DNA from: Primulina eburnea
Lineage: Eukaryota; Streptophyta; Magnoliopsida; Lamiales; Gesneriaceae
Direction: 5' to 3'
DNA length: 64,000 bases
Assembly: GCF_022965805.1 (NCBI RefSeq)
Contig: NC_133104.1
Location: forward strand, 21,216,912-21,280,911
The position numbers and the translations under genes are program-made. The notes beneath the pieces were generated by a model. The model saw only the letters and a list, made by a program, of their open reading frames with translations, was not told the DNA's origin and made no database searches. The first letter of the stretch is position 1. Every line of letters begins with the position of its first letter. This document shows positions 18,149 through 62,124 of this stretch, piece after piece.

Positions 18149-20036
18149 TGTAAGGCTCGAGATTTATAGTTCTCATCGACATAATACTCGGAATATATGA
18201 GTATGTATATATATATAATGAGGAGTGTTAATTGAGATGAGAATAGGAAATACATGGACAAGAGGAGAAAATCTTAAAATTTGGACAGAACAGTTGGCGC
18301 ATATGCGCGAAGATAAGTGGCGCATATGCGCGACATTTACAGTAGCCTTGGCGCACATGCGCGAGACAATGCGCGCATATGCGCGACACGTCCAGTAGCT
18401 GTGGCGCACATGCGCGAGATAAGTGGCGCATATGCGCGAGTGTTATTTTCTGCCAAGTGCCGAGACAGTAGGTCTCGCGCATATGCGCGAGTAGTGACCG
18501 CGCATATGCGCGAGACGTGTATTGCAAAGGATGAGCCATGTGTATCGAATCATGCAATATATATATAAATGGTTTTCTTTCTTTGCCATTCTATCAGCAA
18601 ACCACCGAGGATAGTCTTAGGAAAAGGTAAGCTACTTTCTACCTTAGAATAGAGCTTGTGTAAGATTTACACATCCAAATTTAAATCCGATTGCGGTTTT
18701 GAACTCCCCTCCGTATTAGCTACAAGTAATGTAAGTTTCATTCAATTCCAGCATGTTTTGATATTTAGGTGATGGCAAAATGATGAATTGAACTTCATAC
18801 TATGTTCTTGAACTGGTAGAGGTTGTAGAACCGTAAACGGATCGATTATCGGATGTCATATGCAATTGTTACGATTGTATAGCATGTTTAGAACTAAATA
18901 TGCAGATTTTGGGTACTATGACATGTTTAGGATGATGATTATGAGTTGATGAGTTTAGATTGATAATGTGTTGATATGTGTTGAGAATTTGATTGACCGG
19001 TATCGAGAATTACGTCGTTATGCCGTCAAATTGTACTGAAATCAAGTATTGACTTGGACAGGTGTTGATTAGATTAAAGATTGATAGATTATGTATCAAC
19101 ATTTCCATTTCAGATTCGTCTTGACGACCGTGACAGCGATTGTGCGACGAAAGGTATAGTACATGTTTTGTTTGGGGAATTACGACTCAAATGAGATCAC
19201 ATTTGAGTTTCCCAACCAAAATCACATACTTGTTTTATTGTTTATATCTAGATATGATTATGATTGTTTATAGATTTGTTTATAGAACTTGTATACAAAT
19301 CTTGCTATGCTTTGTTTACAGATCATGTGGCATTGCATTAGAATGATTATGCTTGTTTACAGATTGTGTATTCATGCATTAAGATAGGAAAGTCTGCGAG
19401 ATCATCCAGACTTCTAGATGTTCGGCGATATCACAGCTTAGGGGAAGATCACCGCCCCTATTGTAGATGTCGATACAGATCAGGCCGAAGTCTAGGAATA
19501 AGACATACCGTCACCCCGATTGGGAGGGTAGGTGATAGATCGTCTTATTCACAACGGGATCCCTAGAGTTCTAGTCGAGTCGCGTCTAGGCATGATTAGA
19601 CTCGCATTGCATGATTATATATGAATGACATTCATATTAGCATGTTTCATGTTTTAGATTGTTTTAATGCATGTATACATGTTTATACTGGGATTTGTTC
19701 TCACCGGTTTTCCGGCTGTTGTTATGTCTGTATGTGTGCATAACAACAGGTGGGGCAGGATCTGGGTCGAGACAGAGATGATCGTGTTAGCGTGGAGATC
19801 ACGGGCGTAGCAGATGGACCAGTAGTTGTCTTTTATTATGTACTGTCTTTTAATACTGGTTAGTTGAGGACATACAGAATAAGACATGTATTGTGTTTGT
19901 ATGTTGTAAATTTAATAAAGAACTTATGCTTGTTTAATTACATTTGATTAAATGTAAAAGCGAAAAATTTGACCCACATTTTAGAATAACGATCCATTTA
20001 ATCCCAAGAAAAAGAATTAGAGCCCGGGTCCCCACA
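18149..20036 (+). repeat. Gypsy-B 3' LTR
   Basis: 1888 bp, TGTAAGGCTCGAG...GTCCCCACA. The right flank ggtgc (20037-20041) would be the target duplication; its partner is outside the window. Confidence 0.93.
18297..18569 (+). promoter_or_regulatory. Gypsy-B U3 array of GCGCATATGCGC dyads, and TATA box
   Basis: Eight dyads start at 18297, 18320, 18351, 18373, 18404, 18426, 18477 and 18500, giving steps of 23, 31, 22, 31, 22, 51 and 23 bp. TATATAAA is at 18562-18569. The long-interval spacer contains GTCCAGTAG. The short ORFs across the array are by-products of the repeats. Confidence 0.9.
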
Positions 20037-20161
20037 GGTGCGGTCTCTCTTGTACTCAAAAACTCTAATTTCTCATGTCTTTTCTCCCCTCATTGCACTT
20101 CATGCATTCTCATACCTTCCGAGTTTCACGTTAATGAAGATTAATAATCTCGAGCCTTACA
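20037..20161 (-). repeat. LTR-X fragment (start of a minus-strand gypsy LTR)
   Basis: Read on the minus strand it begins TGTAAGGCTCGAGATTATT at 20161 and runs into an ACCGCACC motif at 20037, where Gypsy-B was inserted. It matches the LTR starts of the other gypsy families here. The rest must lie left of the window. It is inserted in Gypsy-M pol. Confidence 0.8.
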
Positions 20162-20206
20162 AAATACATCACAGAACTCTCTCACAACATCAATATCATC
20201 AATATT
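20162..20206 (-). pseudogene. Gypsy-M pol sliver between LTR-X and Gypsy-C
   Basis: Forty-five bases. On the minus strand they encode a VREFCDVF-like segment, which in gypsy polyproteins lies just before the reverse transcriptase. The sliver joins in frame to the Gypsy-M segment at 28635 once Gypsy-C and one copy of its duplication are removed. ATATT at 20202-20206 is the left duplication of Gypsy-C. Confidence 0.78.
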
Positions 20207-21975
20207 TGTAAGGCTCGAGAATTATCAGTTGTCATTGATGTTAGATTTGAAGAGATGAGAATGCATGACATAAAAATGAGAATTTTGAAAGAATGGCCGA
20301 AGCCATACCGCACCTACGCCTCAGACAAGACCGCACCTGCGGTGTATTATTCAGAATTTTGAAGTTTGGCCGTAGCATTACCGCACCCGCGGTCTTGCAG
20401 AGACCGCACCCGCGGTCGATGAATTTCAGAAAATGAAAGGGCTACCTAGAGCATAGCGCACCCGCGGTCCCGAGACACTGCACCTGCGGTGCTGCATGCA
20501 AAAATGCCACCTTTGTTTCTTGGCTTGACACATGGCATGTATATATATATGAAGCTGCTGAATCTTCGTTCTTCATTCAGGAAAAAAAGAGAGAACCGAG
20601 AGCATGCCTTGTTTCCTTTAAACCTTCTTCATATTAGAATTGAGATTATGCAACAACTAGCCATTCGATTTTAATTTCGAGTCCGGATTTGTGATCCTTG
20701 CATCATTGGCTACAAGAGGATGTAAGTATTGTTCATTTCCAGCATGTCTCGAAATATATGTGTTGGAGAAGTTATGATTTTGTTAGAGATATGTGTTCTT
20801 GGTATATTGAGTATCGTAGAAATACAATTGGATCGATTTTCAGATAATGTATGACGTTGTTTCCATTTTCCAGCATATTTATTGAGTTGAGATGGAATAA
20901 ATTCAGTATGATATTGTGTTTTGATGAGATTATGAATTGTTGATATTGAGCTTGGTGTTGTTGAGTTATCGGTATGGAAGAAGTACGTCGTTATGCCGTC
21001 GATTTTATACCGAGACCGATTATTGAATTGCACAAGATTGTTTGAGTTGTGTTTTGATATTTAGCACATTGATTATGCCATTTCAGATTTGTATTGGCTA
21101 TTGTGAACGCAAGACTCCGACTACGACACCGACTATTCGACAAGAAAGGTATAATTCATGTGGTCACGGGATTGCACAACTCGATTCAGATTTGATACGA
21201 GTTTCCCTAAATCACATACTAGATTGTTATTACATTTGATTATGTAATGTCTTATTTATTGATTTATATTCGAGTTTTGAGATAGGAGATATTGGCAGAT
21301 TGGCCAAAACTAGACGTTTCGGTGTATCGACGCCTAGGAGCAGATTTACTCTATGTGTAGACCCTCGATACAGAGTTGACCGAAGTCTAGGAATAAGACG
21401 TACCGTCGCCCCGAGTGGTTGGGTAGGTGACAGACCGTCTTATTCACACCGGGATCCCTAGAGTAGAAATGAATCGAGTCAAGAATTAGAGGTTGAATAC
21501 ATATTTGTATTCCTTTACATGTTGTAGATTTTATATTCATGTGCATTGATATATGCTATGCATTGGTGTATGATTTATTACATTGCATGCATACATGTTT
21601 TATACTGGGATTTGTTCTCACCGGAGTTATCCGGCTGTTGTCGTGTCTGTATGTGTGCATGGCAACAGGTGGGGCAGGATCTGGGTCTCGAGCTAGATGA
21701 GAGATTGATGATAGCGTGGAGATCTCGGGCGTTGAAGATTTCTAGTGTTTGCTTATTAGACTTGTACTACTGATGTTTGTAGTTGGTATTTAAACACTAG
21801 CGTAAGATTGTACTAAACAGACTTGTATGTAGATTATGTTGTTTAAGTAATATAAAGACATGTTATGCTTTAATTATACATTTGAATTAATGTTAAAAGC
21901 AAAATTTTGACCCACGTTTTCGAGCAAAGATCCAATAAATCCCAAAAGAATTGAGTTAGAGCCCGGGTCCCCACA
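20207..21975 (+). repeat. Gypsy-C 5' LTR
   Basis: 1769 bp, TGTAAGGCTCGAGAATT...GTCCCCACA. Contains the array at 20308-20490, the inverted repeat GAATAAGACG (21391-21400) with CGTCTTATTC (21436-21445), and the conserved stem-loop around 21632-21668. Confidence 0.94.
20308..20550 (+). promoter_or_regulatory. Gypsy-C U3 array of ACCGCACCCGCGGT dyads, and TATA region
   Basis: Units start at 20308, 20331, 20381, 20404, 20456 and 20478 (steps 23, 50, 23, 52, 22). A TATATATATAT stretch follows at about 20540-20550. The motif differs from that of Gypsy-B but the spacing classes are the same. Confidence 0.88.
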
Positions 21976-21980
21976 ACAGG

Positions 21981-21992
21981 TGGTATCAGAGC
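21981..21992 (+). other. Gypsy-C primer-binding site
   Basis: TGGTATCAGAGC, five bases after the LTR. Confidence 0.93.
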
Positions 21993-22237
21993 AGTAGGTT
22001 CTGTAGACTGAGATAGAATAGAATGAGCGGGGTAGATCGAGTCATCTTCCTTGCTTTTGATGTGCTAGCATGATTTATTGCTTTCCCTATTATATGTTGT
22101 TACATTATCTGAGTTGATTTACAGCATATACTTGTCAATCCTGAATCAGAACCGATTCTCGATCAGAGGTTTATGATCAGAGGAGGGCTGAGACAGATGA
22201 TATTTATTCTGTACTAATCAGTTTGATAATCAGATTT

Positions 22238-25200
22238 ATGCCGCCTAGACGTATACCACAGCCAGAGCAGGGTAGCACATCAGGTGCACAGATGGATGTC
22301 ACCGCTACGCCGATGGAGACCTTATTGAAGAGGTTTCAGTTTTTCCATCCTCCTACGCTGAAGGGCACAGAGAGTGCAGTAGAGTGCGAGAGCTGGCTTG
22401 ATGATATCGAGATGTTGTTTGAGTCTTTGGCATATACTGATGAGCGACGTGTGAAACTGGTAGGGCATCAGCTGCAAGAGGTTGCAAAGAGCTGGTGGTT
22501 GACTGCGAAGAGAGCCTTGGAACACCGAGGCATTGACATTACGTAAAAAGTCTTCAAAGATGAGTTCTATCAGCGCTTCTTCCCCGTCTCCTACCAGAAA
22601 GATAAAGGGGCTGAATTTGCGAATCTGAGGCAGGGACAGTGGAACATCGAGGAGTATGTTGCTAAATTTTCTGCGTTGCTTCGCTTTGCACCGCATGTGG
22701 CTGGGAACGACGAGGCAGTGGCCGATCAGTTCATCAATGGGTTGAATCCAGATGTCTTTACTTTGGTGAACACGGGCCGGCCTAATACTTTTTTGGAGGC
22801 ACTGAACCGAGCGAAGGGAGCAGAGGCTGGCTTGATCAGGCAGCGAGGGGCTTCCTACGGTGTTCAGGAGCAGAGACAGCCACAGCCTACTACCGTACAG
22901 TTTCCACCACCTCCTCCTCGATTTGACAGTGGATCCAGTAGTAGCGGCAAGAAGGAATTTCTGAAGGCTAAGGGCAAACAGTTTAAGAAATCCGGGAATA
23001 GTTCATCGAGTTCAAGTGGATCTTGACAGAGAGGTCAGGGTTCAGATTATAGTGGCGTGTATTGCAGTTCGTGCGGAGGGCGACATGCCACCGAGCAGTG
23101 TCAAGGAGTTATGGGACGCCGCAACATCTGTAGGAAACCGGGATACTTTGCCAGAGTTTGTCCCCAGAGAGGTGCACCACGATTCCAGAGCACGGGGTCA
23201 TCAGCACCAGCGCCACAGATTGAGAGACAGGCATCCTCTGTACACTCTTTCCAGCCACCATCTACACAGACCCAGCAAAGACCAGGAGGTAGTCAGACAG
23301 TGAGTCAACCTTCCAGACAGCAGGCTCGTGTCTTTGCCTTGACAGAGGAGCAGGCTCAGGATGCGCCCGATGACGTGATTGCAGGTAACTGTTTACTTTG
23401 CGGTTATCCTGCATATGTGTTGATTGACACAGGTGCATCACATACATTCATCTATGAACGTTTTGCATTATTGCACTCTTTGCCTGTCGAGTCGATGGCT
23501 ACTGTAGTGTCTATTACATCTCCGTTGGGAAGTGGTTTGATATTTGTGACTACTGTTAGACACTGTATGCTTCAGTTTGAGGGGCATGAGATTGATCTAG
23601 ATTGTATAGTACTTGGTTTAGCTGATTTTGATTGTATAGTTGGTATAGACATGTTGACCAAGTACAGGGCCACTGTAGATTGTTTCCACAAGATTGTCAG
23701 GTTCAGACCTGAATTGACCGAAGAGTGGAAATTCTACGGTAAGGGTTCCAGATCTCGGATTCCCTTAGTATCTGCTCTGACTATGAGTAGATTGCTTCAG
23801 AGAGGAACAGAGGGCTTTCTCGTATATTCAGTAGATTTACTGAAGTCGAGCCCAGCATTGGCAGATCTGCCAGTGGTTTGCGAGTTTGCAGAAGTTTTCC
23901 CTGATGAGATTCCGGGGTTGCCCCCAGTTCGAGAGGTTGATTTCCGCATAGATCTTGTTCCAGGCAGTGTTCCTATTTCGAGAGCTCCGTATAGGATGGC
24001 GCCTATTGAACTGAAAGAATTGAAAGCACAATTGGAAGATCTTCTGTCCAAGGGATATATCAGACCCAGTGTATCACCTTGGGTGCTCCGGTACTTTTTG
24101 TTAGAAAGAAAGATGGTTCGATGCGACTATGTATTGATTACAGACAGTTGAACAAGGCAACAGTAAAGAACAAGTATCCTTTTCTGCGCATCGATGATTT
24201 ATTTGATCAGCTTCAAGGGTCTTCGGTTTACTCGAAGATTGATTTGAGATCAGGGTATCATCAGCTCAGAGTTAGAGACGTTGATATACCGAAGACTGCA
24301 TTCCGAACCAGGTACGGACATTATGAGTTTGTTGTTATGCCTTTCGGTTTGACGAATGCACCAGCGGTATTTATGAGTTTGATGAACCGCATCTTTCAGA
24401 GATATTTAGATGATTTTTTTATTGTGTTCATTGATGATATTTTGGTATATTCGAAGAGTCTGATTGAGCATGCAGAGCATTTGAGAATTGTATTGCGGAC
24501 TTTGAGAAAAGAGCAGTTATACGCCAAATTGTCCAAGTGCGAATTCTGGCTGAAACAGGTTGTCTTTTTGGGGCACATTATATCTGGAGATGGTATTGCG
24601 GAAGATCCGAGTAAAGTTGAGGCTATTATCAGTTGGCCGAGACTTACTTCTGTGCCAGAGATACGCAGTTTCATGGGTCTAGCAGGGTATTATCGTCGTT
24701 TTATCCGAGATTTCTCCAGTATAGCGAAGCCTATCACCCAGTTTACATAGAAGAACATGCCATTTGTGTGGTCCGAAGATTGTGAAGCCAGTTTTGTGGA
24801 GTTGAAGAAGAGGCTGACTAGTGCGCCTGTCTTGACGATTCCTTCAGGTACAGGTGAGTTCGTTGTATACTGTGACGCATATCACAGAGGGCTAGGATGT
24901 GTTCTTATGCAGTGAGGGCATGTGATAGCTTACGACTCTAGACAGTTGAAGCCACACGAAACTCGTTATCCGATTCATGATCTTGAATTGGCGGCGATTG
25001 TCTTTGCCTTGAAGATCTGGCGTCATTATTTGTATAGCGAGAAATTTGAGATCTATTCCGATCATAAGAGTCTGAAGTACCTCTTTTCTCAGTCAGAGTT
25101 GAACATGAGGCAGCGACGATGGCTTGATCTGCTGAAAGATTTTGATTGCGAGATCAAGTACTATCCAGGGAAGTCGAATGCAGCGGCAGACGCCTTGAGT

Positions 25201-26757: not shown

Positions 26758-26821
26758 TGTGAGTCTTCCTTTCAGTTTTGATTATACTGTTTTGTATATA
26801 CTTGCATGATTATTTGCTTAC

Positions 26822-26859
26822 GAGTTCGAGGACGAACTCCTGTCTAAGAGGGGGAGAAA
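26822..26859 (+). other. Gypsy-C pre-PPT hairpin and PPT
   Basis: GAGTTCG-AGGA-CGAACTC (26822-26839), then AAGAGGGGGAGAAA up to the LTR. Both arms differ from Gypsy-B at the same pair (T-A changed to G-C), so pairing is kept. Confidence 0.88.
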
Positions 26860-28629
26860 TGTAAGGCTCGAGAATTATCTGTTGTCATTGATGTTAGATT
26901 TGAAGAGGTGAGAATGCATGACATAAAAATGAGAATTTTGAAAGAATGGCCGAAGCCATACCGCACCTGCGCCTCAGACAAGACCACACCCGCGGTGTAT
27001 TATTCAGAATTTTGAAGTTTGGCCGTAGCATTACCGCACCCGCGGTCTTGCAGAGACCGCACCCGCGGTCGATGAATTTCAGAAAATGAAAGGGCTACCG
27101 AGAGCATAGCGCACCTGCGGTCCCGAGACACTGCACCTGCGGTGCTGCATGCAAAAATGCCACCTTTGTTTCTTGGCTTGACACATGGCATGTATATATA
27201 TATGAAGCTGCTGTATATTCATTTTTCATTCAGGAAAAAAAATAGAGAACCGAGAGCATGCCTTGTTTCCTTTAAACCTTCTTCATATTAGAATTGAGAT
27301 TATGCAACAACTAGCCATTCGATTTTAATTTCGAGTCCGGATTTGTGATCCTTGCATCATTGGCTACAAGAGGATGTAAGTATTGTTCATTTCCAGCATG
27401 TCTCGAAATATATGTGTTGGAGAAGTTATGATTTTGTTAGAGATATGTGTTCTTGGTATATTGAGTACCGTAGAAATACAATTGGATCGATTTTCAGATA
27501 ATGTATGACGTTGTTTCCATTTTCCAGCATATTTATTGAGTTGAGATGGAATAAATTCAGTATAATATTGTGTTTTGATGAGTTTATGAATTGTTGATAT
27601 TGAGCTTGGTGTTGTTGAGTTATCGGTATGGAAGAAGTACGTCGTTATGCCGTCGATTTTATACCGAGACCGATTATTGAATTGCACAAGATTGTTTGAG
27701 TTGTGTTTTGATATTTAGCACATTGATTATGCCATTTCAGATTTGTATTGGCTATTGTGAACGCAAGACTCCGACTACGACACCGACTATTCGACAAGAA
27801 AGGTATAATTCATGTGGTCACGGGATTACACAACTCGATTCAGATTTGATACGAGTTTCCCTAAATCACATACTAGATTGTTATTACATTTGATTATGTA
27901 ATGTCTTATTTATTGATTTATATTCGAGTCCTGAGATAGGAGATATTGGCAGATTGGCCAAAACTAGACGTTTCGGTGTATCGACGCCTAGGAGCAGATT
28001 TACTCTATGTGTAGACCCTCGATACAGAGTTGATCGAAGTCTAGGAATAAGACGTACCATCGCCCCGAGTGGTTGGGTAGGTGACAGACCGTCTTATTCA
28101 CACCGGGATCCCTAGAGTAGAAAGGAATCGAGTCAAGAATTAGAGGTTGAATACAGATTTGTATTCCTTTACATGTTGTAGATTTTATATTCATGTGCAT
28201 TGATATATGCTATGCATTGGTGTATGATTTATTACATTGCATGCATATATGTTTTATACTGCGATTTGTTCTCACCGGAGTTATCCGGCTGTTGTCGTGT
28301 CTGTATGTGTGCATGGCAACAGGTGGGACAGGATCTGGGTCTCGAGCTAGATGAGAGATTGATGATAGCGTGAAGATCTCGGGCGTTGAAGATTTCTAGT
28401 GTTTGCTTATTAGACTTGTACTACTGATGTTTGTAGTTGGTATTTAAACACTAGCGTAAGATTGTACTAAACAGACTTGTATATACATTATGTTGTTTAA
28501 TTAATATAAAGACATGTTATGCTTTAATTATACATTTGAATTAATGTTAAAAGCAAAATTTTGACCCACGTTTTCGAGCAAAGATCCAATAAATCCCAAA
28601 AGATTTGAGTTAGAGCCCGGGTCCCCATA
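26860..28629 (+). repeat. Gypsy-C 3' LTR
   Basis: 1770 bp. The final CACA has mutated to CATA. The dyad array starts at 26961, 26984, 27034, 27057, 27109 and 27131, with the same steps as the 5' LTR (23, 50, 23, 52, 22). Confidence 0.93.
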
Positions 28630-30148
28630 ATATTCAACTTAACCATTCTATCCATATCAACAATCGTAGCCAAAAACCCATCAAAACCTCTAAACATCAA
28701 CTTCTTAGCCTCAAGACACGAAATAAAAGGAAGGACCAGCGAAGTACCTGCACTGGTTAGCACACCTTCCCTATTGCCACCATCTGAAATTTCACCGTCT
28801 TAGCAACGCAATAAATCACTGCACGATAGGTTGATAGCCAATCCATGCCAAGTATAATATCAAACGCAACCATCGGAATAACAATCAAATCGGCATAAAC
28901 CACTCGCTCATCAATTTGAACAGAGCACACATACACAATAGATGTCGGGCACAACACATCTCCCGAAGGCAATACAACATTAAACTGGAGGGGAATAATA
29001 GAAGAAACTAAACCCAAAGATCTCAAAAATAGTTCAGACATAAAAGAATGAGTAGCACCTGTATCAATCAATGTCGTTGCTACTCTTCCTGAAATTAAAA
29101 TAGTTCTAGAGATCACAGAAGAATCATGGCTTATACCTTCCTTCGTCATGGTGAAGATGCGACCCTGCACCTTCTCTCTACTCGATCCTCTTGGACAGTC
29201 CTTGGCAATATGGCCTGCAGTGCCACATCGGTAGCAAGTGTGAGTACCAAATCTGTATTCTCCCCTATGATGCCTGCTGCACTTGGGACACAACGGCTTC
29301 TCTGGATCAAATGGAACTGCTGGTGCTTTAGAACTCGATTCCATCTTACCTTTCCCCTTAAAACTGGCTTTTCCTCTTTGGCTCGAACCCTGACCCCTTT
29401 GAGCAATAGCCTGCTGCCTCGCCTGTCTCTCTCTTGCAATGTCTTTCTCATCTTGCTCGGCCAACAAGGCTTTAGCCACAATCTCTTTATATGTCACCGC
29501 CTTAGACATATTGATGTCCCTCCTGATCTCTTCTTGAAGGCCTCTAATGAAGTGAGCACCCTTGTCTTTGTCATTGGAGGCAATATATGGGGCAAACAGA
29601 CAGCCCTCCTCGAACTTCAGAATGTACTCATCGAAATTCATACCTCCTTGATGAAGCTCTAAAAACTCATTCACCTTCCGAGCTCTAAGTGCATCTGGGA
29701 AGTACTTGTCATAGAAAAGATCAGTAAAATCTTGCCACTTCATTACCGGTACATCAACACCTACCTTGGTAGCATTCCACAAAATGCGTGCAGCTTTGAC
29801 TAACATGAACACTGCACAACCAATTCAGTCCTTGTCTTCATAGTTGAGATGATCAAATATCGCCTCAAGTGCTTTGATCCACTCTACTGCCACCAATGGA
29901 TCAGTGCTTCCTGCAAATTCCGACAGGTCCATCCTCTTGAAAGCAGTAAAGATTCCATCGGTTCCAACTACTTGAGCCACTTGGCCTCTCCCTTGACCTC
30001 TACCTTGGCCTGAACCTTACAAACGGAGCAACTATTGGATCTGCTCATTGTGGACCTTGGCTTGCTCTTTCAATAACTTGCCGAACTCGTCGACAACTCT
30101 CGATGAAGAATTATCCTCACCCTCTGAAGTCTTTCTCTTAGGAGGCAT
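28630..30148 (-). pseudogene. Gypsy-M gag and protease, minus strand
   Basis: Read leftwards from the ATG at 30148 (MPPKRK). Contains a capsid-like region, CCHC knuckle (CYRCGTAGHIAKDC, around 29220), protease loop LIDTGATHSF near 29070 and an ILGMDWLS segment. Defects are an in-frame TGA near 29825 and a frameshift near 28787, after which the frame opening with SAGTSLVLPF continues towards the reverse transcriptase and is cut by Gypsy-C. The gag is clearly different from that of Gypsy-B/C/D/E but similar in layout to Gypsy-Y. The start codon lies inside the Copia-2 target duplication. The reverse transcriptase, integrase and 3' LTR of this element should lie left of the window. Confidence 0.88.
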
Positions 30149-32298
30149 TGTTAGAGTAGGTGCCCGTCGAGCCAAGTGTTGGCCGAGTGTTCACAATGAA
30201 ACTCTATGTATAAGCAGTCTTTATTTTAATAATATTTGAAATTATTATTTTGGCAAATCTTTATCTGTATACCCATGCTAGCTGCATAGATAAAGCCCTT
30301 GAATATACAAATAGTAGAAAGAATATGAGATGCTCATATGATGAGTATCATGAAACTCATATTTGTAATACTGTATATTCTAAACGGTTCCTAGTCGATT
30401 CAGCCGCCACTAAGAAGGATATAGGCCGCTCGAGTTAGAGACTAGTATCTGCGATGTGAGTACCATGTTTCATTGGTAGGGGACATTGTGATGTCCGAAC
30501 ATGCAGATAGGTGCTCCTTGTAGAGTGCACTGAACAACCCTCCATAAAAGGACTTTCCAAGTGGTTCTCACTTATCGAGTGGAAAAGTCCTGGTTTATGG
30601 TTGTACTGAATTAGTCCTTATGACCCGGGACAACATTGAGACTCTATGTGCTAGAATTACACTTTGACTTGTTTACCGACTCTCATGGGGTCATCAGGTG
30701 GCAAGATTGGGTGTTCTGTCGAAACACATAGGAGTCGATGCATTGTAGTCGGGGATTCACCGCTTACCTTCGGGTATGGATATCCTATGTGTTATCATGT
30801 GTATGTAGATCGAAATCTCTGGCCAGAGTATGGTTGTAATTATGAAAGGTGTTTCATAGATTACACCATCGATGCAACTACGACATGACACATAGTATCG
30901 ATTCATTGACAACTCTCGATAAACCAATAGTTGTCGAATCGATCGGGATATATGAGTTGAAGGGACCGTACTGTACGCTAACCATAATTGAATGGTTCTT
31001 GCAGGCACTATCATGTGATACCTAGGGAATCACGTAAGCGATGCTGCTAGGCGTTTAACGTGATTGGTTGGGTACTATCAGACTTGAGTTCTGACGTTCT
31101 TACTATCAAGGAGTTGATAAGTAAGAATGGAGCAATTGGGGTATGCTCGAATAAGGACATGTTTAGTCCGAATCACATGGAGATGTGAACCCACGGCTAG
31201 TTGTATCAATGAACCATTGAGGGCCACACAAGTACTAGCTTTGTAAATCCCGATGAGAAGTAAAATAGTTCAATGTGTTGAACGGCTTATAAAGGAGTTT
31301 ATAAGCGTAAAGGAAAATTAGAAGTATGACTTCTATAAAGGAGAAAATAGTTCAATGTGTTGAACAACTTATAAATGAGTTTATAAGTGTAAAGAAAAAT
31401 AGAAGTATGACTTCTATGAGAGAAATGTAAATTTTGATTTATGGAAGTGTTCCTAAATTAAAATTTGGCCAAGTGACTAATGTTTTTGAAAATTGTGATT
31501 TTCATAAACATTATTATGGACTAAATTAAATTAATTCAAGTGTTGAATTAATTAAACACTAGTGGGCCTAGTAGAGCCCAAATAATTAAATTAATTCAAG
31601 TGTTGGATTAATTAAATAATATTGAGTCTAGTAGAGCTCAATTAAAATAATTATTTAACTAGTGGGACTTGAGTAAATTCAAGTAATATTTAATTTGTCT
31701 CAAATATGTTTGAGATAATTAAATTTGGTCCAAAGTTTTTAATTTGATTAAAAACTATATTGTATGCATGCATGGGAGGTGAAGGGTTGGAGATTACTTT
31801 TGAATAAAATATTGGCATGGCATGCCACTTTTTGTATCAACTTTTTGCAACCCCAAGAGAACTCTTCCCTCCTCCATTACACAAGCATATGGCCGAAACC
31901 ATCTCTCCAATTCTCTCCCAAGATTTTTCTCCATTTTGTTCTTCAAATTGTTGAAGAATAAAATACTTCTCTTTGATAAATCTTCTTGTTTTTCTAGTGC
32001 AAAACAAGAAGGGATTTACCTAGTTAGTGGTGGGCTTGATTTTGAAGGAAAGAACTCAAAGGATTTGGAGGAGGAGCTTGTAGATCTTCATCCATTCAAG
32101 AGCTTTGTTGTTTAACAACAAAGTTGGAGCCACAATCAACTTTTTAAAGTTGATAGGTAAAACTTCTAAACATCCTATGTATGTTTTGAGATTTTTGTAA
32201 ATATTGCACAACTTCTTATGGTGGCCGAAATTTTCTCTTAAAAATTTGATTTTTATGCTTCCGTTGCGTTTCCGGCCACCGTAACCGGTCCGCTTTCA
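30149..32298 (+). repeat. Copia-2 5' LTR
   Basis: 2150 bp, TGTTAGAG...CTTTCA. Longer than the Copia-1 LTR, partly through an 82-bp tandem duplication at 31262-31425. Confidence 0.96.
31262..31425 (+). repeat. 82-bp tandem duplication in the Copia-2 LTR
   Basis: Two diverged copies, 31262-31343 and 31344-31425, each running from AAAATAGTTCAATGTGTTGA to TATGACTTCTAT. Copia-1 has one copy. Present in both Copia-2 LTRs, so it predates the insertion. Confidence 0.85.
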
Positions 32299-32300
32299 AG

Positions 32301-37350: not shown

Positions 37351-37361
37351 AAGTGGGAGAT
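37351..37361 (+). other. Copia-2 polypurine tract
   Basis: AAGTGGGAGAT, identical to Copia-1, directly before the 3' LTR. Confidence 0.88.
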
Positions 37362-39511: not shown

Positions 39512-39653
39512 AGGCATTACTCCTACAATGTGCTCACATAATACATATCAACCAATAACAATGAATTGATGTAGAAGAAGACATAGCCGGACTGTTGAAA
39601 TTAGACGAAGTCATGTGCATTGGTCCGAAGAACCTGGCTCTGATACCACTAAA
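39512..39653 (-). other. Gypsy-M leader and primer-binding site
   Basis: On the minus strand the LTR ends at 39654. Five bases later the PBS TGGTATCAGAGC is read from 39648 to 39637, followed by about 120 bases of leader up to the gag ATG (39517-39515), which is duplicated by the Copia-2 insertion. Confidence 0.88.
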
Positions 39654-41498: not shown

Positions 41499-42032
41499 TG
41501 TAAGGCTTGAGATTATTAGTCTTCATTGTTGTGAGACTCGGAAGATATGAGTATGCATGACATATAATGAGAGTTTTGAATAAAGGAAAACCGCACCCGC
41601 GAGTAGAAAAGGATTGCACCCACGGTCATTAATCCTGAATTTTTGAAGGGAATGCCGAAGCAATACTGCACCTGCGGTAGATATATGACCGCACTCGCGG
41701 TTGAATGGCAGTAGGGTGGTAGATATATGACCGCACTCGCGGTTGAATGGCAGTAGGGTGTGATTTTTTAACAAAGGGACACCGCACCCGTGGTGAAGAG
41801 ATACCGCACCCGCGGTGCCTGTCCAGTAGGGTAGGAAATTTGGTGCGAAGCCAGACCGCACCCGCGATGTAGGAGTGACCGCACCCGCGGTCGACGTTGA
41901 TGAATTTTTGGAAGGAAGGCCGTGAGTTGAGTTCACCCGCGGTAGAATGAGAGCGCACCCGCGGTGCTGCATGCGAGAAATCCACCCTTGTTTCTTATGA
42001 TGACACAAGGCATATATATATATATATAGAAA
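41499..42032 (+). repeat. LTR-Z, 5' part
   Basis: Starts TGTAAGGCTTGAGATTATT and contains an 11-unit dyad array. It ends in a TATATATATATATA stretch followed by agaaa (42028-42032), the left duplication of Gypsy-D. It continues at 50615. Confidence 0.9.
41591..42026 (+). promoter_or_regulatory. LTR-Z dyad array and TATA stretch
   Basis: Units of the CCGCACCCGCGGT type start at 41591, 41614, 41666, 41689, 41731, 41782, 41804, 41856, 41879, 41931 and 41953 (steps 23, 52, 23, 42, 51, 22, 52, 23, 52, 22). A local repeat copies a 42-bp block around 41672-41755. The TA-rich promoter stretch is at about 42012-42028. Confidence 0.87.
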
Positions 42033-44038
42033 TGTAAGGCTTGAAATTATTAGTCTTCATTGATGTGAGACTCGGAAGATATGAGTATGCATGACAGGTA
42101 ATGAGAAGTACTAGAGTTATTAGTCTTCATTGACGTGAGATTCAAAAATATGAGTATGCATGACATACAATGGGAAGTACTAAGTGAGATGGGAGTAGGA
42201 AAGACATGAGATGAGATAATAAAATATTCAAAATAGGACAGAAAAGATGGCGCACATGCACGAAGAAATGCGCGCATATGCACGACAACTCCAAAAGCAT
42301 CGGCGCACATGCGCGAAGAAATGCGCGCATCTGCGCGACATGTCCAGAGACATTGGCGCACATGCGCGAGATAAGGAGCGCATATGCGCGACACCTCCAG
42401 AGATTTTGGCGCACATGCGCGAGATGAAGCGCGCATATGCGCGAGGTGTTAAGATTTGCCATTGCTGAGACCAGTAGGTCTCGCGCATATGCGCAGGAGA
42501 TGTCGCGCATATGCGCGAGACGTGTACTCCAAAGAATAAGCCATTTGTCCTAGGCCATGCAAGATATATATAGTGTTGGCTTCATTTCATTCCCTTGCAC
42601 CAGCTAAGGACCGAGACACTCCAAGGAAAATTCAGAAATCCTCAAGTTTTCTTCCTAGCTTGAATTATTGGTTTTGCAAGATTCAATCAACCGATTTTTA
42701 ATCCGAGCTTAGATTTGTAATCCTTGTGCTACTAGCTTCAATGGAATGTAAGTTTCATTCAATTCCAGCATGTTTTGATATATATGTGTGTTAGGAGAAT
42801 GATGAATTGAGCCCTATAATATGTTCTTGAGATTATTGTTATCGTAAAAACGCAACCGGATCGAAGAACGGACGTCATATGCTATCGTTACTATTTTCCA
42901 GCATGTTTAGTGTTAAATGATGCAGATTTTGAGTACTATCATGTGTTTATGATGAAGATTATGAATTGTGGTTACTGATTATTGAAGTTTGGGTTGACCG
43001 GTATTGAGAGTTTACGCCGTTATGCCGTCGAAATATACCGAGATTGAATATTATTGCGTACATGTATGGATTGAGTAGGATCTTGATCTTGTATCTATTG
43101 AACATTACCATTTCAGATTCATTGTGCCTAACTTCGACTTCGAGACTTCGACTAGAACATCGATAAAGGTTCAACAAGAAAGGTATAATTCATGTTTTGT
43201 TTGGGGAAGACACAACTCAAATGAGATTCAATTTGAGTTTCCCAACAAAATCACATACTAGATTATGTTTATATTTTGAATGTTTATGCCTTGTCTATAG
43301 ATTTATATTCAAGTCTTGAGATACGAGTCATTGACAGATTTGTCAAACTAGATGTTCGGTAGTATCGTCGCATTGGAGCAGTTCGACTCCATGTGTAGAC
43401 ACTCGATACAGATATGACCGAAATCTAGGAATAAGACGTACCGTTACCCCGATTGGGAGGGTAGGTGAAAGACAGCGACGTCTCATTCAAACCGGGATCC
43501 CTAGAGTAGAGTCGAATTGAGTCAAGACATGATTTGATTGATATTGCATGCTTATATTGATTTGGTTTCATAGACTATGGAACCTATTGCCTTAATATTA
43601 TTCATGATAGTGTTGTTTCATGATTTATATTTTGTTTATGCATGCATATCATGTTTTATACTCGGATTTGTTTTCACCGGAGTTTCCGGCTGTTGTTATG
43701 TCTGTATGTGTGCATAACAACAGGTGGGGCAGGATCAGGGTCACGACCAAGATGAGATCGAGATAGAGTGGTGGCTTCGGGCACAGAGGACTGCTAGTGG
43801 TTATTGTACTAGACTTGTACTACTTATGATGTGGAGATTGTATGGTATGAACTTTAGTTGGCATGGATGTATTAGAAAAAACCATGTATTTACGTTTGTT
43901 GTAATTAAATAAAGAAAGTTCTTATGCTTGGTTTATATACATTTGATTTAAAGTTAAAAGCAAAAAATTTGACCCACGTTTTCTAACAACGATCCGATTA
44001 ATCCCGAAAGGAACTGAGTTAGAGCCCGGGTCCCCACA
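42033..44038 (+). repeat. Gypsy-D 5' LTR
   Basis: 2006 bp, TGTAAGGCTTGAAATT...GTCCCCACA. Includes a short internal repeat of the LTR start (42049-42100 and 42117-42170 share the word attagtcttcattga) and the conserved stem-loop near 43689-43722. Confidence 0.93.
42250..42572 (+). promoter_or_regulatory. Gypsy-D 5' U3 dyad array and TATA box
   Basis: Ten GCGCAYATGCGC dyads start at 42250, 42272, 42303, 42325, 42356, 42378, 42409, 42431, 42483 and 42505. The steps are 22, 31, 22, 31, 22, 31, 22, 52 and 22, so most of the array is a 53-bp tandem repeat holding two dyads per unit. TATATATA lies at 42565-42572. Confidence 0.92.
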
Positions 44039-48938: not shown

Positions 48939-49155
48939 TGTAAGGCTTGAAATTATTAGTCTTCATTGATGTGAGACTCGGAAGATATGAGTATGCATGA
49001 CAGGTAATGAGAAGTACTAGAGTTATTAGTCTTCATTGACGTGAGATTCGAAAATATGAGTATGCATGACATACAACGGGAAGTACTAAGTGAGATGGGA
49101 GTAGGAAAGACATGAGATGAGATGAGAAAATATTCAAAATAGGACAGAACAGATG

Positions 49156-49369
49156 GCGCACATGCGCGAAGAAATGCGCGCATATGCATGACAACTCCAG
49201 AAGCATCGGCGCACATGCGCGAAGAAATGCGAGCATATGCGAGTCATGTCCAGAGACATTGGCGCACATGCGCGAGATGAAGCGCGCATATGCGCGAGGT
49301 GTTAAGATTTGCAATTGCCGAGACCAGTAGGTCTCGCGCATATGCGCCGGAGATATCGCGCATATGCGC
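49156..49369 (+). promoter_or_regulatory. Gypsy-D 3' LTR dyad array
   Basis: Eight dyads start at 49156, 49178, 49209, 49231 (degenerate), 49262, 49284, 49336 and 49358 (steps 22, 31, 22, 31, 22, 52, 22). Exactly one two-dyad unit fewer than the 5' LTR. Confidence 0.9.
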
Positions 49370-52902: not shown

Positions 52903-55900
52903 TCAGTGAAACAATGCTGGGAATTCCTGCCTCATATCAGATTCAGTCTCCCACGTAGCTTCTTCAGTGCCATGACGAGTCCATTGAATTTTCACAAGAG
53001 GAATCATCTTTGTTCTGAGCTGTTTTTCTTTACGATCGATAATTCGGATCGGTTTCTCAACATAACTCAATGTCTCATCCAGCTCGGTCTCGTCTGGCTG
53101 AATCACGTGAGAATCATCACGGAGATATTTCCGCAGCATCGATACATGAAAGACCTCATGTATTCCAGATAATGAAGGCGGTAAGGCGAGTCGATAGGCA
53201 CGATCTCCTATCTTCTCAAGAATCGCATAAGGACCCACATATCTTGGAGACAATTTCCCTTTCTTGCCGAATCTGACCACACTTCTGAAAGGAGAAATCT
53301 TCATGAATACTCGGTCTCCAGCCTCAAATACCAACGGTCGTCGTCTGAGGTTGGCATATTTGGCTTGTCTGTCCTGAGCTGCCTTCATTTTCTTCTGAAT
53401 TAGCTTCACTTTATCTGTCATATCTCTGATCATATCCGGTCCAGTCTCAGGAACTTCAGAGATATCATCCCAGTATAGTGGGGATCGACATTTCTTTCCG
53501 TACAACGCCTCAAATGGTGCCATCTCAATACTTGTTTGATAGCTATTGTTGTACGAAAATTCACAAAGTGGCAATGCATCTTTCCATCCAGTGCTAAAAT
53601 CAAGCACTACAGCTCTCAGCATATCTTCCAAGGTCTGTATCATACGCTCTGACTGTCCATCAGTCTGTGGATGATATGCGGTACTTAGATGTAACTTCGT
53701 ACTAAGAGCTTGCTGCAAACTCTGCCAGAAGTGCGATGTAAATCGAGGATCACGGTCTGAAACAATCGACTTCGGCACTCCATGCAATCTAATCACTTCT
53801 CGAACATAGATATCGGCCATCTGATCATATCGGTACGTCATCTTGTATGGAATAAAACATGCAGATTTGGTCAGTCGATCAATCACGACCCAAATCGCAT
53901 CACAACCTCGGGAGGATCTCGGCAACTGTGTCACAAAATCCATGGAAAAGTGATCCCATTTCCATTCAGGAATGGACAAACTCTGTAACAATCCTCCTGG
54001 TTTCTTTCTCTCAGCTTTCACCTGTTGGCAATTCAGACACTTGGCTACAAATTCAGTCACATCAGATTTCATTTGTTTCCACCAATACTGTGTCTTTAAA
54101 TCATTATACATTTTCCGACCACCAGGATGCTAAAACGACTGTTGTGCGCTTCTGTCAGTATTCGCTGTCTCAATTCTGAAACATTTGGCACAACAATACG
54201 ATTATTCACATACAAGACATTGTCACGAACCTGATATTCCGCTTGATGTCCAGCTCTGACCATTGCAATCGAATTCTGTACCTTCTGATCAACTTTCTGA
54301 GCTTCTTTAATTTTCAAAAGTAGCTCTGGTTCAGCTTGAATAGTATATAATCTTATAGGTTGACAATCGGTTTCAAAAGCTAATCCAGACAAACAGCAGT
54401 CCTTTATCAAATTCGATACACCCATCGTCGATAAGGATAGTGCACATACCTTTCGACTCAGCGCATCTGCTGCTGCATTCGACTTTCCTGGATAATATTT
54501 AATTTCACAATCAAAGTCTTTCAGTAAATCCAGCCATCTTCGCTGTCTCATATTCAATTCAGATTGTGAAAACAGATATTTCAAGCTTTTATGATCAGAA
54601 TAGATTTCAAATTTCTCGCCGTACAGATAATGTCGCCATATCTTCAAAGCAAAGACAATGGCTGCCAACTCAAGGTCATGAATTGGATAGCGAGTTTCAT
54701 GTGGTTTAAGCTGTCTTGAGGCATAAGCAATCACATGCCCCCGTTGCATCAGAACACATCCCAATCCTCGGTGAGATGCATCACAATAAACCACAAATCC
54801 ACCAGGGCCTGAAGGAATCGTCAACACAGGAGCACTGGTCAGCCTCTTTTTCAACTCAAGAAAACTGGATTCACAGTCTTCTGTCCACATAAATGGAGCA
54901 TTCTTCTGGGTTACCTGCGTAATCGGTTTGGCAATACTCGAAAAATCTTTAATGAATCGGCGATAATATCCTGCCAAACCCATAAAACTGCGAATTTCCG
55001 GCACAGATGTAGGTCTCGGCCAAGAAATCACTGCCTCAACCTTACTGGGATCAACTGCAATACCATCTCCGGATATAATATGACCCAGAAATATCACATG
55101 TTTCAACCAGAACTCGCATTTCGACAATTTAGCATACAGCTTCTCAGTCCTCAGAATTCTCAACACAGTCCTCAGATGATCAGCATGCTCAATCATATTC
55201 TTCGAATAAATCAATATATCATCAATGAATATGATCACAAAATCATCCAAGTATTTCTGAAATACGCGGTTCATCAATCTCATAAATACCGCCGATGCAT
55301 TCGTCATACCAAAAGGCATGACAATAAACTCATAATGTCCATACCTTGTTCTGAATGCTGTCTTGGAGATATCAGAGTCCCTGACTCTCAGTTGATGGTA
55401 TCCAGATCTCAGATCGATCTTGGAATACACAGATGAACCTTGCAACTGATCAAACAAATCATCAATACGAGGCAATGGATATTTATTCTTTACCGTTGCC
55501 TTGTTCAGTTGCCGATAGTCGATACAAAGTCTCATCGACCCATCCTTCTTTCTCACGAATAGTACTGGAGCACCCCAAGGAGATACACTCGGTCTGATAT
55601 ATCCCTTGGCCAGTAAATCCTCCAACTGTTCTTTCAATTCTTTCAACTCGATCGGTGCCATCCTGTAAGGAGCTCTCGAAATCGGAACTGTTCCTGGCAT
55701 TAACTCAATGCTGAAGTCTATCTCTTGAATCGGAGGCAATCCAGTAATCTCATCTGGAAAGACATCAGCAAATTCACACACCACTGGCAAATCCGCCAAT
55801 GATGGGCTCGATTTCAGTAAATCAACTGAATATACCAGGAATCCATCTGCTCCTTTCTGCAATAATCGTGTCATATTCATTGCAGATATCAAAGAAATTC

Positions 55901-57386: not shown

Positions 57387-57607
57387 ATCTGATAACCAAA
57401 AGGGTTAGCAATTCCAACAATAATCATGTTTCAGCCTCCTCGGATCATCTTACAGCTGCTCCATTCCAATAATATACAATACCATATCAATATCAGATAA
57501 TTCAGGTAGCATAGATTAAAACAGGAATCATGCTAGCAATTAAAAGCAGGAAAGAAAACACATTCTACCCCGCTCACTATCTCCTATCTCAATCTCAAGG
57601 ATCTATC

Positions 57608-57619
57608 GCTCTGATACCA
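57608..57619 (-). other. Gypsy-E primer-binding site
   Basis: Complement of TGGTATCAGAGC, five bases from the LTR. Confidence 0.92.
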
Positions 57620-58146
57620 CCTGTTGTGGGGGCCCGGACGCTAATCAAGTTCTTAATCATCATTGGGACAAATTAATCAATAATAAAACAGGGTCTAATT
57701 TTTTTTTTTTTTTTTTTTAACTGCGGAACGTAGTGACATACAACATATATACATATCAGTATATAAAATACAAATCCTGTATTTCAACATTTATTCAAAC
57801 TAGGGTTTAAAACTAAAGTCAAGTGTTTAACCCTATATCTAGTCCAAGTCCGGTGCCACCACTCTAATCACGATCTAGCTCTTCATCTCCTCGACCCTGG
57901 ACCTGTCCCACCTGTTGTCAAGTACACATACAGACAAGACAACAGCCGGATATACCGGTGAGAATATAATCCCCAGTATAAATCAATGAAACATGCAATC
58001 ATATAAACAATATAAAACATGTAATCAGGTAACATGAATATGCATCAAAATCTGAAACATAAACAATATCAAATCAAACTGTCGACATCAATCATAATTA
58101 AGACTAGACTCAATCCTAGTCTAGGGATCCCGGTTTCCAGATGTAG

Positions 58147-58275
58147 TATTCCTATATCGAATTCCGTAATAGAAGGAACTGTATTCCTATTACTCGATAT
58201 AACCAATATCCTGGTATTCCTATATCGAATTCCGTAATAGACGAATTTCCATTTCCTATTACTCGATATAACCAA
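58147..58275 (-). repeat. 68-bp tandem duplication in the Gypsy-E LTR
   Basis: The word TATTCCTATATCGAATTCCG starts at 58147 and 58215, and CCTATTACTCGATATAACCA follows each. Two copies, slightly diverged. Confidence 0.82.
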
Positions 58276-59121
58276 ACATCCGGTGTCCTGACCTATCCGT
58301 CATGGACTGCAGTTTTATCTTTAATAACCTATCTTGAGACATCGTGCAATGTGCCGTGGCGATACCACCACTATCCGGCACTTCTGTCACAAGATAAATC
58401 GTCTACTACCTGTCATCTAAAATCAATAGAACAAGTATATCATCAATTCAATGCAAATATCAATGCAATAAAGTAAAGTATGTGATTTAGGGAAACCCAA
58501 GTCCAAACCGACTCAAGTCCATCTCCCAATACCACATTGACTTATACCTTTCTTTCGTCGGTTTCTGGCTCAGTCGAAGTCCTGAACTCAAAGCCTGTCT
58601 GGTACTGACAATATCAATAATCTCATATCAATATACCAGTCAATTCCATAATAATCTGATCAATCTGGATTTAATTCAAAATTGACGGCATAACTGTACA
58701 ATCTCAATATTCCCGTCAATACCAATTCACCAGATAATAGTTACAATCTATAACCCATATCCAATATAATCTATAATCAATCCACAATTCAAATCTGTCC
58801 GGTATCAACCGATTATAATCAGAAAATCATAACAATTCCATAATCAGTCTATTTCTTAATCTGACTTCGATTTTACGATGTCTAACATGTCAAGAACATC
58901 ATATCTGAATCCTATTCAATTCTGACAATAGCATAATTTCAAAACATGTCAAAACGTAGCAAAACTTATGTCAAGTTGTAGCCTACGTCGATAGGATTAC
59001 CGTACCGAAGTCGGATTACGATTTGGACAGATGAATACTGCACGGTGGAATTTTGAAATCACAAAAGCTACGTCCCTCGGAAGCTCTCAATTTTGATTCT
59101 CTCCCTTTCAGAATGAAGCAA

Positions 59122-59421
59122 TATATGTATATATATTACATGCAAACATCAATACGTTTCAGCTTGAGAATTCACGCCCAGCCTCTCGCGCATATGCGCG
59201 CCTGGTTTCCACGCATATGCGCGAGACTAATGTCTCGGCGCGTGCTGCCCACATCGCCTCGCGCATATGCACGCATCTCTCGGCGCAGGTGCGCGAGGTG
59301 AATTGCATTTCGGGGATGGCTATTGTCTCCTTCGCGCATATGCGAGGTGTCACTCCGCGCATATGCGCGAAGCCTACTGCATGGTCCGCGCAGGTGCGCG
59401 CATTGGTCCGCGCATGTGCGT
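59122..59421 (-). promoter_or_regulatory. Gypsy-E U3 dyad array and TATA region
   Basis: GCGCATATGCGC-type dyads start on the plus strand at 59188, 59211, 59261, 59283, 59334, 59357, 59388 and 59410 (steps 23, 50, 22, 51, 23, 31, 22). Read on the minus strand the array precedes a TATATATA stretch at about 59122-59140. Confidence 0.88.
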
Positions 59422-59552
59422 GAGTCCTTCGCACAAATACACACACTTTTCACACGTACTTGTATTTCATGTCCCGATTAATCCTTTCATAATCATATCA
59501 AATTATATTTCAATAATTACAGATTACTAGGATTAAATTTCCGGGCATTACA

Positions 59553-60481: not shown

Positions 60482-60970
60482 TGTGGGGATCCGGACGCTA
60501 ATCATGTTATTAATCATCATTGGGACTAATCAATCAATTATAAAACAGGGTCTAATTTTTTTTTCTAAAATACACAGCGGAAACGTAATGTAATTAAATT
60601 CAAATTACATATTAAACATAACATACAATTATTGTATGATCTACAATAATCCAACTAGGTTCAACTACAAGTCCGTGCTGAATCCTAAGTTGCTTCAAAG
60701 CCCGGATCTCCACGCTATCTAGTCCAGCCTCGTTCTCTTCTTGACCCTGATCCTAGCCCACCTGTTGCCATTCACACATACAAACAAGACAACAGCCGGA
60801 TAACTCCGGTGAGATATAAATATCCCAGTATAAACAATGTATACATGCAATCATATAAAAGCATATACGAAAGCATATAAGAATTATTCATAACATGTCT
60901 CATATCAGAAACATAAATCAAGATCAATCATTCCATAAACATGAATGATATAAACAATGTAAATCAACAT

Positions 60971-61054
60971 GTCGTATCAGACTCAACTCAACCGACGCGT
61001 TGTCTCAGACTCGACTCCACTGACGTGTCGTCTCAGACTCGACTCAACTCTAAC
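60971..61054 (-). repeat. 28-bp tandem repeat, three units
   Basis: Units at 60971, 60999 and 61027 share TCAGACTCGACTC. Inside the Gypsy-F LTR. Confidence 0.8.
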
Positions 61055-61160
61055 CTAGGGATCCCGATGTCTGGATATAGGTAATTATATCGAATCTCAG
61101 TCGATAGGAATGAATCAATCCCTAAACGGCATCGATAATTAATATATCCAGTTTCTGGGC

Positions 61161-61400
61161 GAATCAGCCGCAGAATTGACGACTCAGTAAATAACCCGAC
61201 GAATCAGCCGGTGATTAGGCGAATCAGCCAATAATCAGACAACTCAGCCTGTAATTAAGCGAATCAGCTTAAGTTTAGATGAATCAGTCAATAACCAGAC
61301 GAATCAGCCGGTAATTAAGAGAATCAGCTTAAGTTTAGACGAATTAGTCAATAACCAGACGAATCAGCCGGTGACTAGGCGAATCAGCCTATGACTCAAC
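61161..61400 (-). repeat. 20-bp minisatellite inside the Gypsy-F LTR
   Basis: Twelve units in exact 20-bp register from 61161, with plus-strand consensus near GAATCAGCCGGTAATTAGGC. A 60-bp higher-order copy is visible (61261-61320 against 61321-61380). Not seen in the other LTRs. Confidence 0.92.
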
Positions 61401-61800
61401 GACTCAGTAATCAATACATGCATTCAGTATCCAAGTAAATCAATCGATGACTAGCGAATCAACAGTCATTACATGCAATGGCTATAAATCAATAGACAAC
61501 AAACATCAATCTCATCAATTACAAGAATCAATGTAATAAACTAAGTATGTGATTTAGGGAAACTCGAGTCAAACTTTCCTCGAGTTGTGCAATCCCAACA
61601 CAACATTAATTTATACCTTTCTTTCTGATACTCTGACTTTGTCGAAGTCTCGAACTCAAATCTGTCAATAGGAACACAGTACCGCAGTCGGATTCAAAAT
61701 CGGACGGAAGAATTTCTCACAAAAGGCGTAAGGATTTTTCAATTGTTTTCTCCGTACCTTTCTCGATTCCTTCTTCTGAAAACTGAAGAATTCGTTTGTA

Positions 61801-62124
61801 TATGTATATATATATACACATTCATGCATGCAAGGCAAGTGGCTCATCCCACATTTTACACGTCTCGCGCATATGCGCGAACAATGTCGCGCATATGCGC
61901 CAGTTATTTAAACTAGCGCTTTGCCTTCTCGCGCATATGCGCCAATCATTCCGCGCATATGCGCCAATCCTTCTGCCAACCCCGCGCATGTGCGCCATTT
62001 TTGTCGCGCATATGCGCCGATCATTCTGGACGGGTCGCGCAGATGCGCGCCTTATCTCGTGCATGTGCGCCGATGCTACTGGATGTTCCGCGCATGTGCG
62101 CCAATACATGTCGCGCATGTGCGC
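61801..62124 (-). promoter_or_regulatory. Gypsy-F U3 dyad array and TATA region
   Basis: Dyads start on the plus strand at 61867, 61889, 61931, 61953, 61984, 62006, 62037, 62059, 62090 and 62113 (steps 22, 42, 22, 31, 22, 31, 22, 31, 23). On the minus strand the array is followed by TATATATATA at about 61805-61816. Confidence 0.9.

Follow-up and report, generated by a model that had tools for sequence, protein, structure and literature searches.

Palindromic doublet arrays in plant Ty3/gypsy long terminal repeats: two motif spellings on a probably common ground plan

Several long terminal repeats (LTRs) in a 64,000-nucleotide stretch of the Primulina eburnea genome carry rows of a short palindromic motif, mostly a short way upstream of TATA. 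This stretch (contig C4, positions 21,216,912-21,280,911 of an 812,487,562-base genome; hereafter the window) consists of nested LTR retrotransposons, and the motif occurs in it in two spellings that are carried by different Ty3/gypsy elements. The locus raises a simple question: is this one array whose recognition sequence has been rewritten, or are these separate arrays that happen to be spaced alike? A preliminary description favoured the former. Our analysis indicates that the two spellings are related states of one motif, that the spacing follows a fixed register, and that arrays have likely switched from one spelling to the other on more than one occasion.

A fixed register of doublets

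The repeated unit is 12 bp long and two-fold symmetrical, and reads G-CGCA(T/C)(A/C)TGCG-C in group 1 and C-CGCACC(C/T)GCG-G in group 2. Group-1 arrays lie in the 3' LTR of Gypsy-B (18297-18511, + strand; eight units with steps of 23, 31, 22, 31, 22, 51 and 23 bp), in the 5' LTR of Gypsy-D (42250-42516, +; ten units) and its 3' LTR (49156-49369, +; eight units), which has one 53-bp doublet repeat less, in element E (59188-59421, − strand; eight units, among them the centre variant GCGCACCTGCGC) and in element F (61867-62124, −; ten units with steps, in + coordinates, of 22, 42, 22, 31, 22, 31, 22, 31 and 23 bp). Group-2 arrays occupy the 5' LTR of Gypsy-C (20307-20490, +; six units with steps of 23, 50, 23, 52 and 22 bp), its 3' LTR with the same steps (26960-27143, +), LTR-M (40829-40994, −; six units with steps of 23, 52, 23, 31 and 23 bp) and LTR-Z (41590-41965, +; 11 units with steps of 23, 52, 23, 42, 51, 22, 52, 23, 52 and 22 bp). 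Each array is a row of doublets, that is, two units 22-23 bp apart followed by a longer gap, and all 64 neighbour steps of the nine arrays measure 22, 23, 31, 42 or 50-52 bp.

The same holds genome-wide. In the genome search, where repeat counts are lower bounds and both-strand sums count palindromes twice, GCGCATATGCGC was found at 46,571 sites (reversed control, 8) and CCGCACCYGCGG 30,860 + 29,824 times on the two strands (60,684; control, 2 + 2). Exact group-1 units paired 14-44 bp apart numbered 21,569, and exact group-2 units 11,652 + 11,199 (22,851), with none in either control. Among the matches listed, which come from the first part of contig C1 and include LTR pairs of single elements, 50 of 50 group-1 pairs stood at 20, 22, 23, 31 or 41-43 bp, and 100 group-2 pairs were distributed over 22-24 bp (75), 40-44 bp (13) and 17-20 bp (12). 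The two doublet patterns matched 0 and 2 stretches in viral_contigs.

A wider catalogue of 38 arrays (20 of group 1, 18 of group 2) draws on the window, on twenty 10-kb stretches taken every 3 Mb along C1, on stretches around listed motif matches and on eight junctions of polypurine tract (PPT) and LTR, hand-picked from 100 listed of the 2,200 in the genome and lying on the + strand in seven cases. It takes one LTR per element, leaving out the Gypsy-C 5' and Gypsy-D 3' arrays of the window, and omits L043, which has a single unit. Units of the three groups (the third is described below) are contained in five of the twenty C1 stretches, and L030 also holds a small third-group cluster. Steps were counted over the 33 distinct architectures of the catalogue, leaving out units with three mismatches. 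In group 1, 136 steps comprised 73 of 22-23 bp, 33 of 31 bp, 16 of 50-54 bp, seven of 41-43 bp, three of 25 bp and one each of 14, 18, 28 and 48 bp; in group 2, 80 steps comprised 46 of 22-24 bp, 25 of 50-53 bp, five of 17-20 bp, three of 31 bp and one of 42 bp. At the array end at L022:6313-6332, two units overlap, 8 bp apart.

The gap classes of 20, 31, 42 and 51-52 bp differ by about one helical turn, and the doublet step of 22.5 bp does not fit this series. Distinct gap lengths (steps of 21-25 bp left out) show a stronger periodicity near 10-11 bp than uniform lengths would (p 0.0007), and gaps alone have a best period of 10.4 bp (R 0.84). When all steps are pooled, however, the best period is 9.5-9.75 bp (R 0.81), against R 0.67 at 10.5 bp. 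This discrepancy, together with the use of 17-bp steps by group 2, weighs against clean phasing and weakens a strict 10.5-bp rule in particular. The spacing is thus a fixed register that is approximately phased: the steps claimed in the preliminary description recur across LTRs as stated, in the window and beyond it, whereas the helical spacing it proposed is weakened in its exact form, all steps together fitting a period of about 9.6 bp best.

Two states of one motif and their exchange

It is likely, judging from the sequences, that groups 1 and 2 inherited one array ground plan by descent, because spacer anchors lie at matching places in both and the distance from the last unit to TATA is similar. 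The anchor GCCG[AT][AG]A stands in the last gap before the TATA-proximal doublet in eight of 20 group-1 and 13 of 18 group-2 arrays, and in none of the other gaps (0 of 41 and 0 of 20, respectively). GCCGAAGC directly precedes the first unit in three of 20 and eight of 18 arrays, and CAGTAG is enriched in the gaps of both groups. A TATA was found within 140 bp in 13 of 20 group-1 arrays, at a median of 54 bp from the centre of the last unit (range 15-65), and in 15 of 18 group-2 arrays, at a median of 56 bp (range 44-57). On the other side, orientation had to be guessed for the TATA-less group-1 arrays L045, L047, L022a and L027b. The occurrence of GTCCAGTA in both groups was rejected as evidence by itself, with three copies against 1.23 expected. 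Between arrays, spacers are 37-50% identical, where 26-29% would be expected by composition, as opposed to 86-93% for the units, a value inflated by the choice of units for their similarity. Neither unrelated LTRs with independent spacing nor drift without register was found; the LTRs are related and the register has been kept.

CGCAnnYGCG is the core of both groups, which are told apart by the centre and by the outer base of each half. They are linked by a common hybrid, GCGCACCYGCGG, that joins a group-1 left half to a group-2 right half (7,993 + 7,798; 15,791). Given this core and this link, the two motifs are, at the level of sequence, states of one motif rather than unrelated recognition sequences. 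The opposite hybrid, CCGCACCYGCGC, is less common (2,513 + 2,471; 4,984), group-2 flanks around a group-1 centre are rare (CCGCAYATGCGG, 56 + 62; 118), and so is an outer A/T (WCGCAYMTGCGW, 323 + 292; 615; control, 54 + 52). The intermediates GCGCACATGCGC, GCGCACCTGCGC and GCGCACCTGCGG are all present in the window. When group-2 arrays are read over their last eight units, a G flanks the left half in 21 of 36 units at the two positions nearest TATA and in seven of 89 at the others (Fisher 6e-9). The hybrids, the intermediates and these TATA-proximal left halves suggest an order of change in which the centre came first, followed by the right half and finally by the left half, the TATA-proximal doublet being the last to change. 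Plain descent could, for its part, account for the link between centre and flank.

In the sequences compared, motif state does not simply follow pol, since the group-2 element L062 pairs with the group-1 element L066 in the pol tree (support 98/97). This tree omits L018, L021, L023, L056 and the cut pol fragments 2-160 and 10195-10416, which had no array or gave broken or cut matches. None of 200 bootstrap trees has group 2 arising by one change. Several LTRs also combine features of both groups. The first 70 bp of LTR-Z are 92-94% like Gypsy-D, of group 1, and its remainder is group-2-like, with a group-2 array; L065, with a group-2 array, has a group-1-like flank before TATA (score 31 against a null maximum of 25), for which L052 is a weaker case (score 23 against a null 99th percentile of 21.4); and the 5' end of L062 is nearest to D (0.80), Z, B and L066. 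It is therefore likely that the spelling has switched more than once under an unchanged spacing.

Several observations weigh against this reading. The approximately unbiased (AU) test retains a single group-2 clade (p 0.094), and the inner branches of the first pol tree are mostly weak (eight of 12 open, bootstrap not settled). The 5' end of L062 scores only 0.68 with L064 and 0.59 with L059, both of group 1, and up to 0.70 with group 2, and the 5' end of LTR-Z stands out with D only. In addition, no unit was found by exact-core search in the related elements L021 (pol 70-78% identical) and L018 (60%), so that the wider lineage can do without arrays. The unit-free U3 (unique 3') regions of these two elements, at L021:6400-8200 (with a TATA-like TATATAAA) and L018:299-1900, offer a natural contrast. 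Of the original proposal that the architecture was kept and the motif exchanged between LTR families, the existence of two states and their exchange within one lineage thus stand, strongly by bootstrap and not decisively by the AU test, and the idea of separate recognition sequences falls with the shared core and the frequent hybrid.

Elements, neighbours and a third motif group

The array-bearing elements have gag, protease, reverse transcriptase (RT), RNase H and integrase in Ty3 order between their LTRs (Pfam matches to Retrotrans_gag, RVP_2, RVT_1, RT_RNaseH and Integrase_H2C2, with rve below its cut-off). A weak chromodomain match in element E (PF00385 Chromo, E 2.6e-4, 21.3 bits, below the curated cut-off of 25.1) makes them probable chromoviruses, and by LTR length and layout they may belong to the Tekay clade. 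In their internal regions, B, C, D and E share about 76-81% identity. Among the matches listed, the closest to an RT piece of element E was a protein of Dorcoceras hygrometricum (89% identity), which is a member of the Gesneriaceae, order Lamiales.

The 3' LTR of Gypsy-B (18149-20036, +), delimited from the sequence, pairs with a truncated left LTR at 11780-13252 (98.98% identity). The LTRs of Gypsy-C extend over about 20207-21973 and 26860-28627 (5' and 3', both +), and LTR-Z is truncated (41499-42029, +). Those of Gypsy-D begin at 42033 (5') and 48939 (3'), and the U3 5' end of this element carries an inner duplication with an offset of about 75 bp (42033-42200 and 48939-49110). Element E lies on the minus strand, with its 5' LTR at 57625-59552 (from sequence and Pfam) and its gag-pol frames at 57404-54096 and 54129-52903, and an LTR of element F was recognized in the sequence at 60482-62275 (−). 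Two more elements have LTRs of about 2.1 kb (158-2235 / 8118-10195 and 30147-32300 / 37360-39513; LTR identity 99.5-99.9%). They are copia-like, as judged by eye from the reading frame 4015-8103, and this frame includes a stretch of about 40 residues repeated in tandem.

A third motif, TCGGATCGTCCGA, forms an array of nine units (10618-10851, +; up to three mismatches allowed; steps of 20, 20, 49, 20, 49, 20, 24 and 19 bp) that directly precedes TATAAATA at 10860, within an LTR whose start lies at about 10559. In the U3 of this more distant gypsy element (10559-10869), which the preliminary description does not mention, the doublets of TCGGATCGTCCGA type are 19-20 bp apart and follow another register than groups 1 and 2. 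The exact 13-mer occurs 10,248 + 10,310 times in the genome (20,558; control, 1 and 0), and exact copies among the matches listed are separated by 33 steps of 19-20 bp, 31 of 43-49 bp and 16 of 63-100 bp. When the window and a 200-kb sample were searched for palindromes that cluster, groups 1-3 were recovered along with clusters at four other places (L015, L023 twice and L031); a shuffled control gave none.

Possible function, precedents and significance

What could such an array be for? We consider it fairly probable, from sequence evidence, that the arrays are a U3 enhancer predicted to bind a dimeric host protein, in which one linked spelling replaced the other, more than once, with the ground plan kept. 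The symmetry and copy number of the units, their position before TATA, the kept spacing between diverging spacers and the modular exchange all point in this direction. Pairs of the dimeric protein, probably an activator that switches the elements on, would bind the doublets upstream of TATA, and the two spellings would correspond to two binding specificities within a single protein family. Two routes of replacement are likely. In one, units change in register, the centre first, the right half next and the left half, in the doublet nearest TATA, last, and the changed units multiply as doublet repeats come and go. In the other, a U3 block with its array is traded between elements, probably by template switching during reverse transcription.

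Could the units instead act in RNA? Transcribed within the 3' U3, they could form hairpins for small-RNA silencing or packaging, with the spacing as a by-product of hairpin geometry. Group-1 arrays do fold beyond dinucleotide shuffles (z -4.1 to -9.6; eight of 20 folded), as do group-2 arrays to a varying degree (z -0.04 to -6.2; eight of 18 folded), the fold loses about 10 kcal/mol in D5, L044 and L061 when their spacers are scrambled, and palindrome clusters in maize Sirevirus LTRs draw small RNAs, according to the available part of that study (PMC10760457). However, palindromes fold as RNA regardless of purpose, and scrambled spacers fold roughly as well or better in B, F, L048, L059 and L062, which leaves the register unexplained. 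Group-2 units fold worse, array M no better than its shuffles (z -0.04), so a shift to group 2 would weaken the hairpins. The position before TATA is not predicted either, and RNA stems were rejected as the selected feature since the commonest hybrid, GCGCACCYGCGG, breaks the outer pair. We regard an RNA role as unlikely.

Slightly less probable still is that slippage of doublet repeats and descent produced the observed lengths, without selection on the register. Repeats of 53 bp have indeed been gained or lost, for example between the two LTRs of Gypsy-D, LTR-Z contains a 42-bp duplication, and the spacers are more alike (37-50%) than composition alone would make them (26-29%). Yet spacers of the same length are just 37-50% identical, and the 50 listed group-1 pairs nevertheless use only seven of 31 possible lengths. 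Furthermore, the gaps before the last doublet measure 43, 52 and 51 bp in L064, L059 and L066, about one turn apart at comparable places.

The comparison with VANC first drawn for these arrays, in which a transposon-encoded anti-silencing protein reads the array and the motif changes along with the protein, has very little probability: VANC targets are described, in the part of the literature available (PMC5735166), as short motifs that change in concert within tandem arrays, but no sizeable conserved frame lies outside the array in the LTRs of B, C, D and E or the leaders of B, C and D, the units show CpG decay, and array CpGs change no less than other LTR CpGs. The frames shared among the LTRs of B-E and the leaders of B-D are translations of the array or short LTR frames (60-81 aa, alike over 20-69), and a protein search with the array-frame translation gave no match. 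Frames of at least 200 aa in B-E are gag-pol, except for two antisense ones at 22322-23002 (no Pfam match) and 54813-55436 (antisense to pol). The CpG-derived variant GTGCATATGCGC outnumbers the non-CpG GCGTATATGCGC about fivefold (5,426 against 1,055), a ratio that is probably a minimum because the reversed control of GCGTATATGCGC already reaches 873. Between LTR pairs, six of 97 CpGs changed in arrays and ten of 257 elsewhere in the LTR, on small numbers; these changes and the CpG-derived variants do not support a CpG-protected island. Indirectly, the CpG decay indicates that inserted copies are methylated like other transposons, which speaks against lasting hypomethylation.

Parts of the pattern are known already, as far as the available portions of the literature go, namely palindromic LTR motifs before TATA, modular U3 regions and concerted motif arrays. 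Palindromic repeated motifs cluster shortly upstream of TATA in the LTRs of 13 Sireviruses, with mostly a different motif for each element and at least eight copies per element, and are absent from the classic copia elements compared (Bousios 2010; PMC2829016). As here, these are short, dyad-symmetrical, CG-rich multi-copy clusters, and their CGG-CCG signature recurs in the third group, TCGGATCGTCCGA, though not in groups 1 and 2. The Sirevirus carriers are Ty1/copia, whereas ours are gypsy by domain order; in groups 1 and 2 the halves read CGCA-YGCG, the doublets keep a fixed spacing and the motif takes two related states, and several arrays hold just 5-7 units. The accessible part of the Sirevirus account describes neither a spacing rule nor an exchange (PMC2829016). 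In the Tnt1 superfamily, the RNase H region is retained whereas U3 evolves rapidly and in modular fashion, and subfamilies differ mainly in U3; this resembles the modular change seen here, but a common array ground plan with an altered unit is absent from what is accessible of that paper (PMC1838419). Arabidopsis VANDAL elements likewise carry non-coding tandem arrays in which short motifs vary in concert from one related element to the next (PMC5735166, PMC10398659), a behaviour also seen here. They differ, as described there, in encoding the reader protein, for which the copies examined here yielded no gene, and in the VANC21 motif YAGTATTAY, which lacks the two-fold symmetry of our units. 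In maize, cis-regions of this kind often consist of arrayed repeats that can be palindromic, Ty3 elements generally being without an obvious structure peak in the available text (PMC10760457). No paper in the open-licence literature matched GCGCATATGCGC, and those retrieved with CCGCACCCGCGG, TCGGATCGTCCGA, CGCATATGCGCG and ACCGCACCCGC concerned bacteria and tobacco shoot regeneration (PMC7823732), none dealing with transposons by its title or the start of its abstract. In the accessible portion of the same literature, we found no gypsy lineage that combines a fixed doublet register with two interchangeable spellings.

Returning to a dimeric host protein, it is tempting, if more speculative, to suggest that a plant family of dimeric DNA-binding proteins has split into classes reading G-CGCA...TGCG-C and C-CGCA...YGCG-G, and that retrotransposon lineages hop between these classes. 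To hop, a lineage would rewrite its doublet array or trade it for another, within the geometry that a shared protein scaffold demands, and TCGGA...TCCGA is perhaps a further specificity class of such a family. These elements, whose units number more than 100,000 in a single genome, represent a natural experiment in which a multi-site promoter array changes its recognition sequence with its geometry kept. Should the protein be found, it would name the driver of this plant's very abundant retrotransposons and would provide a direct test of how such elements change host partners.

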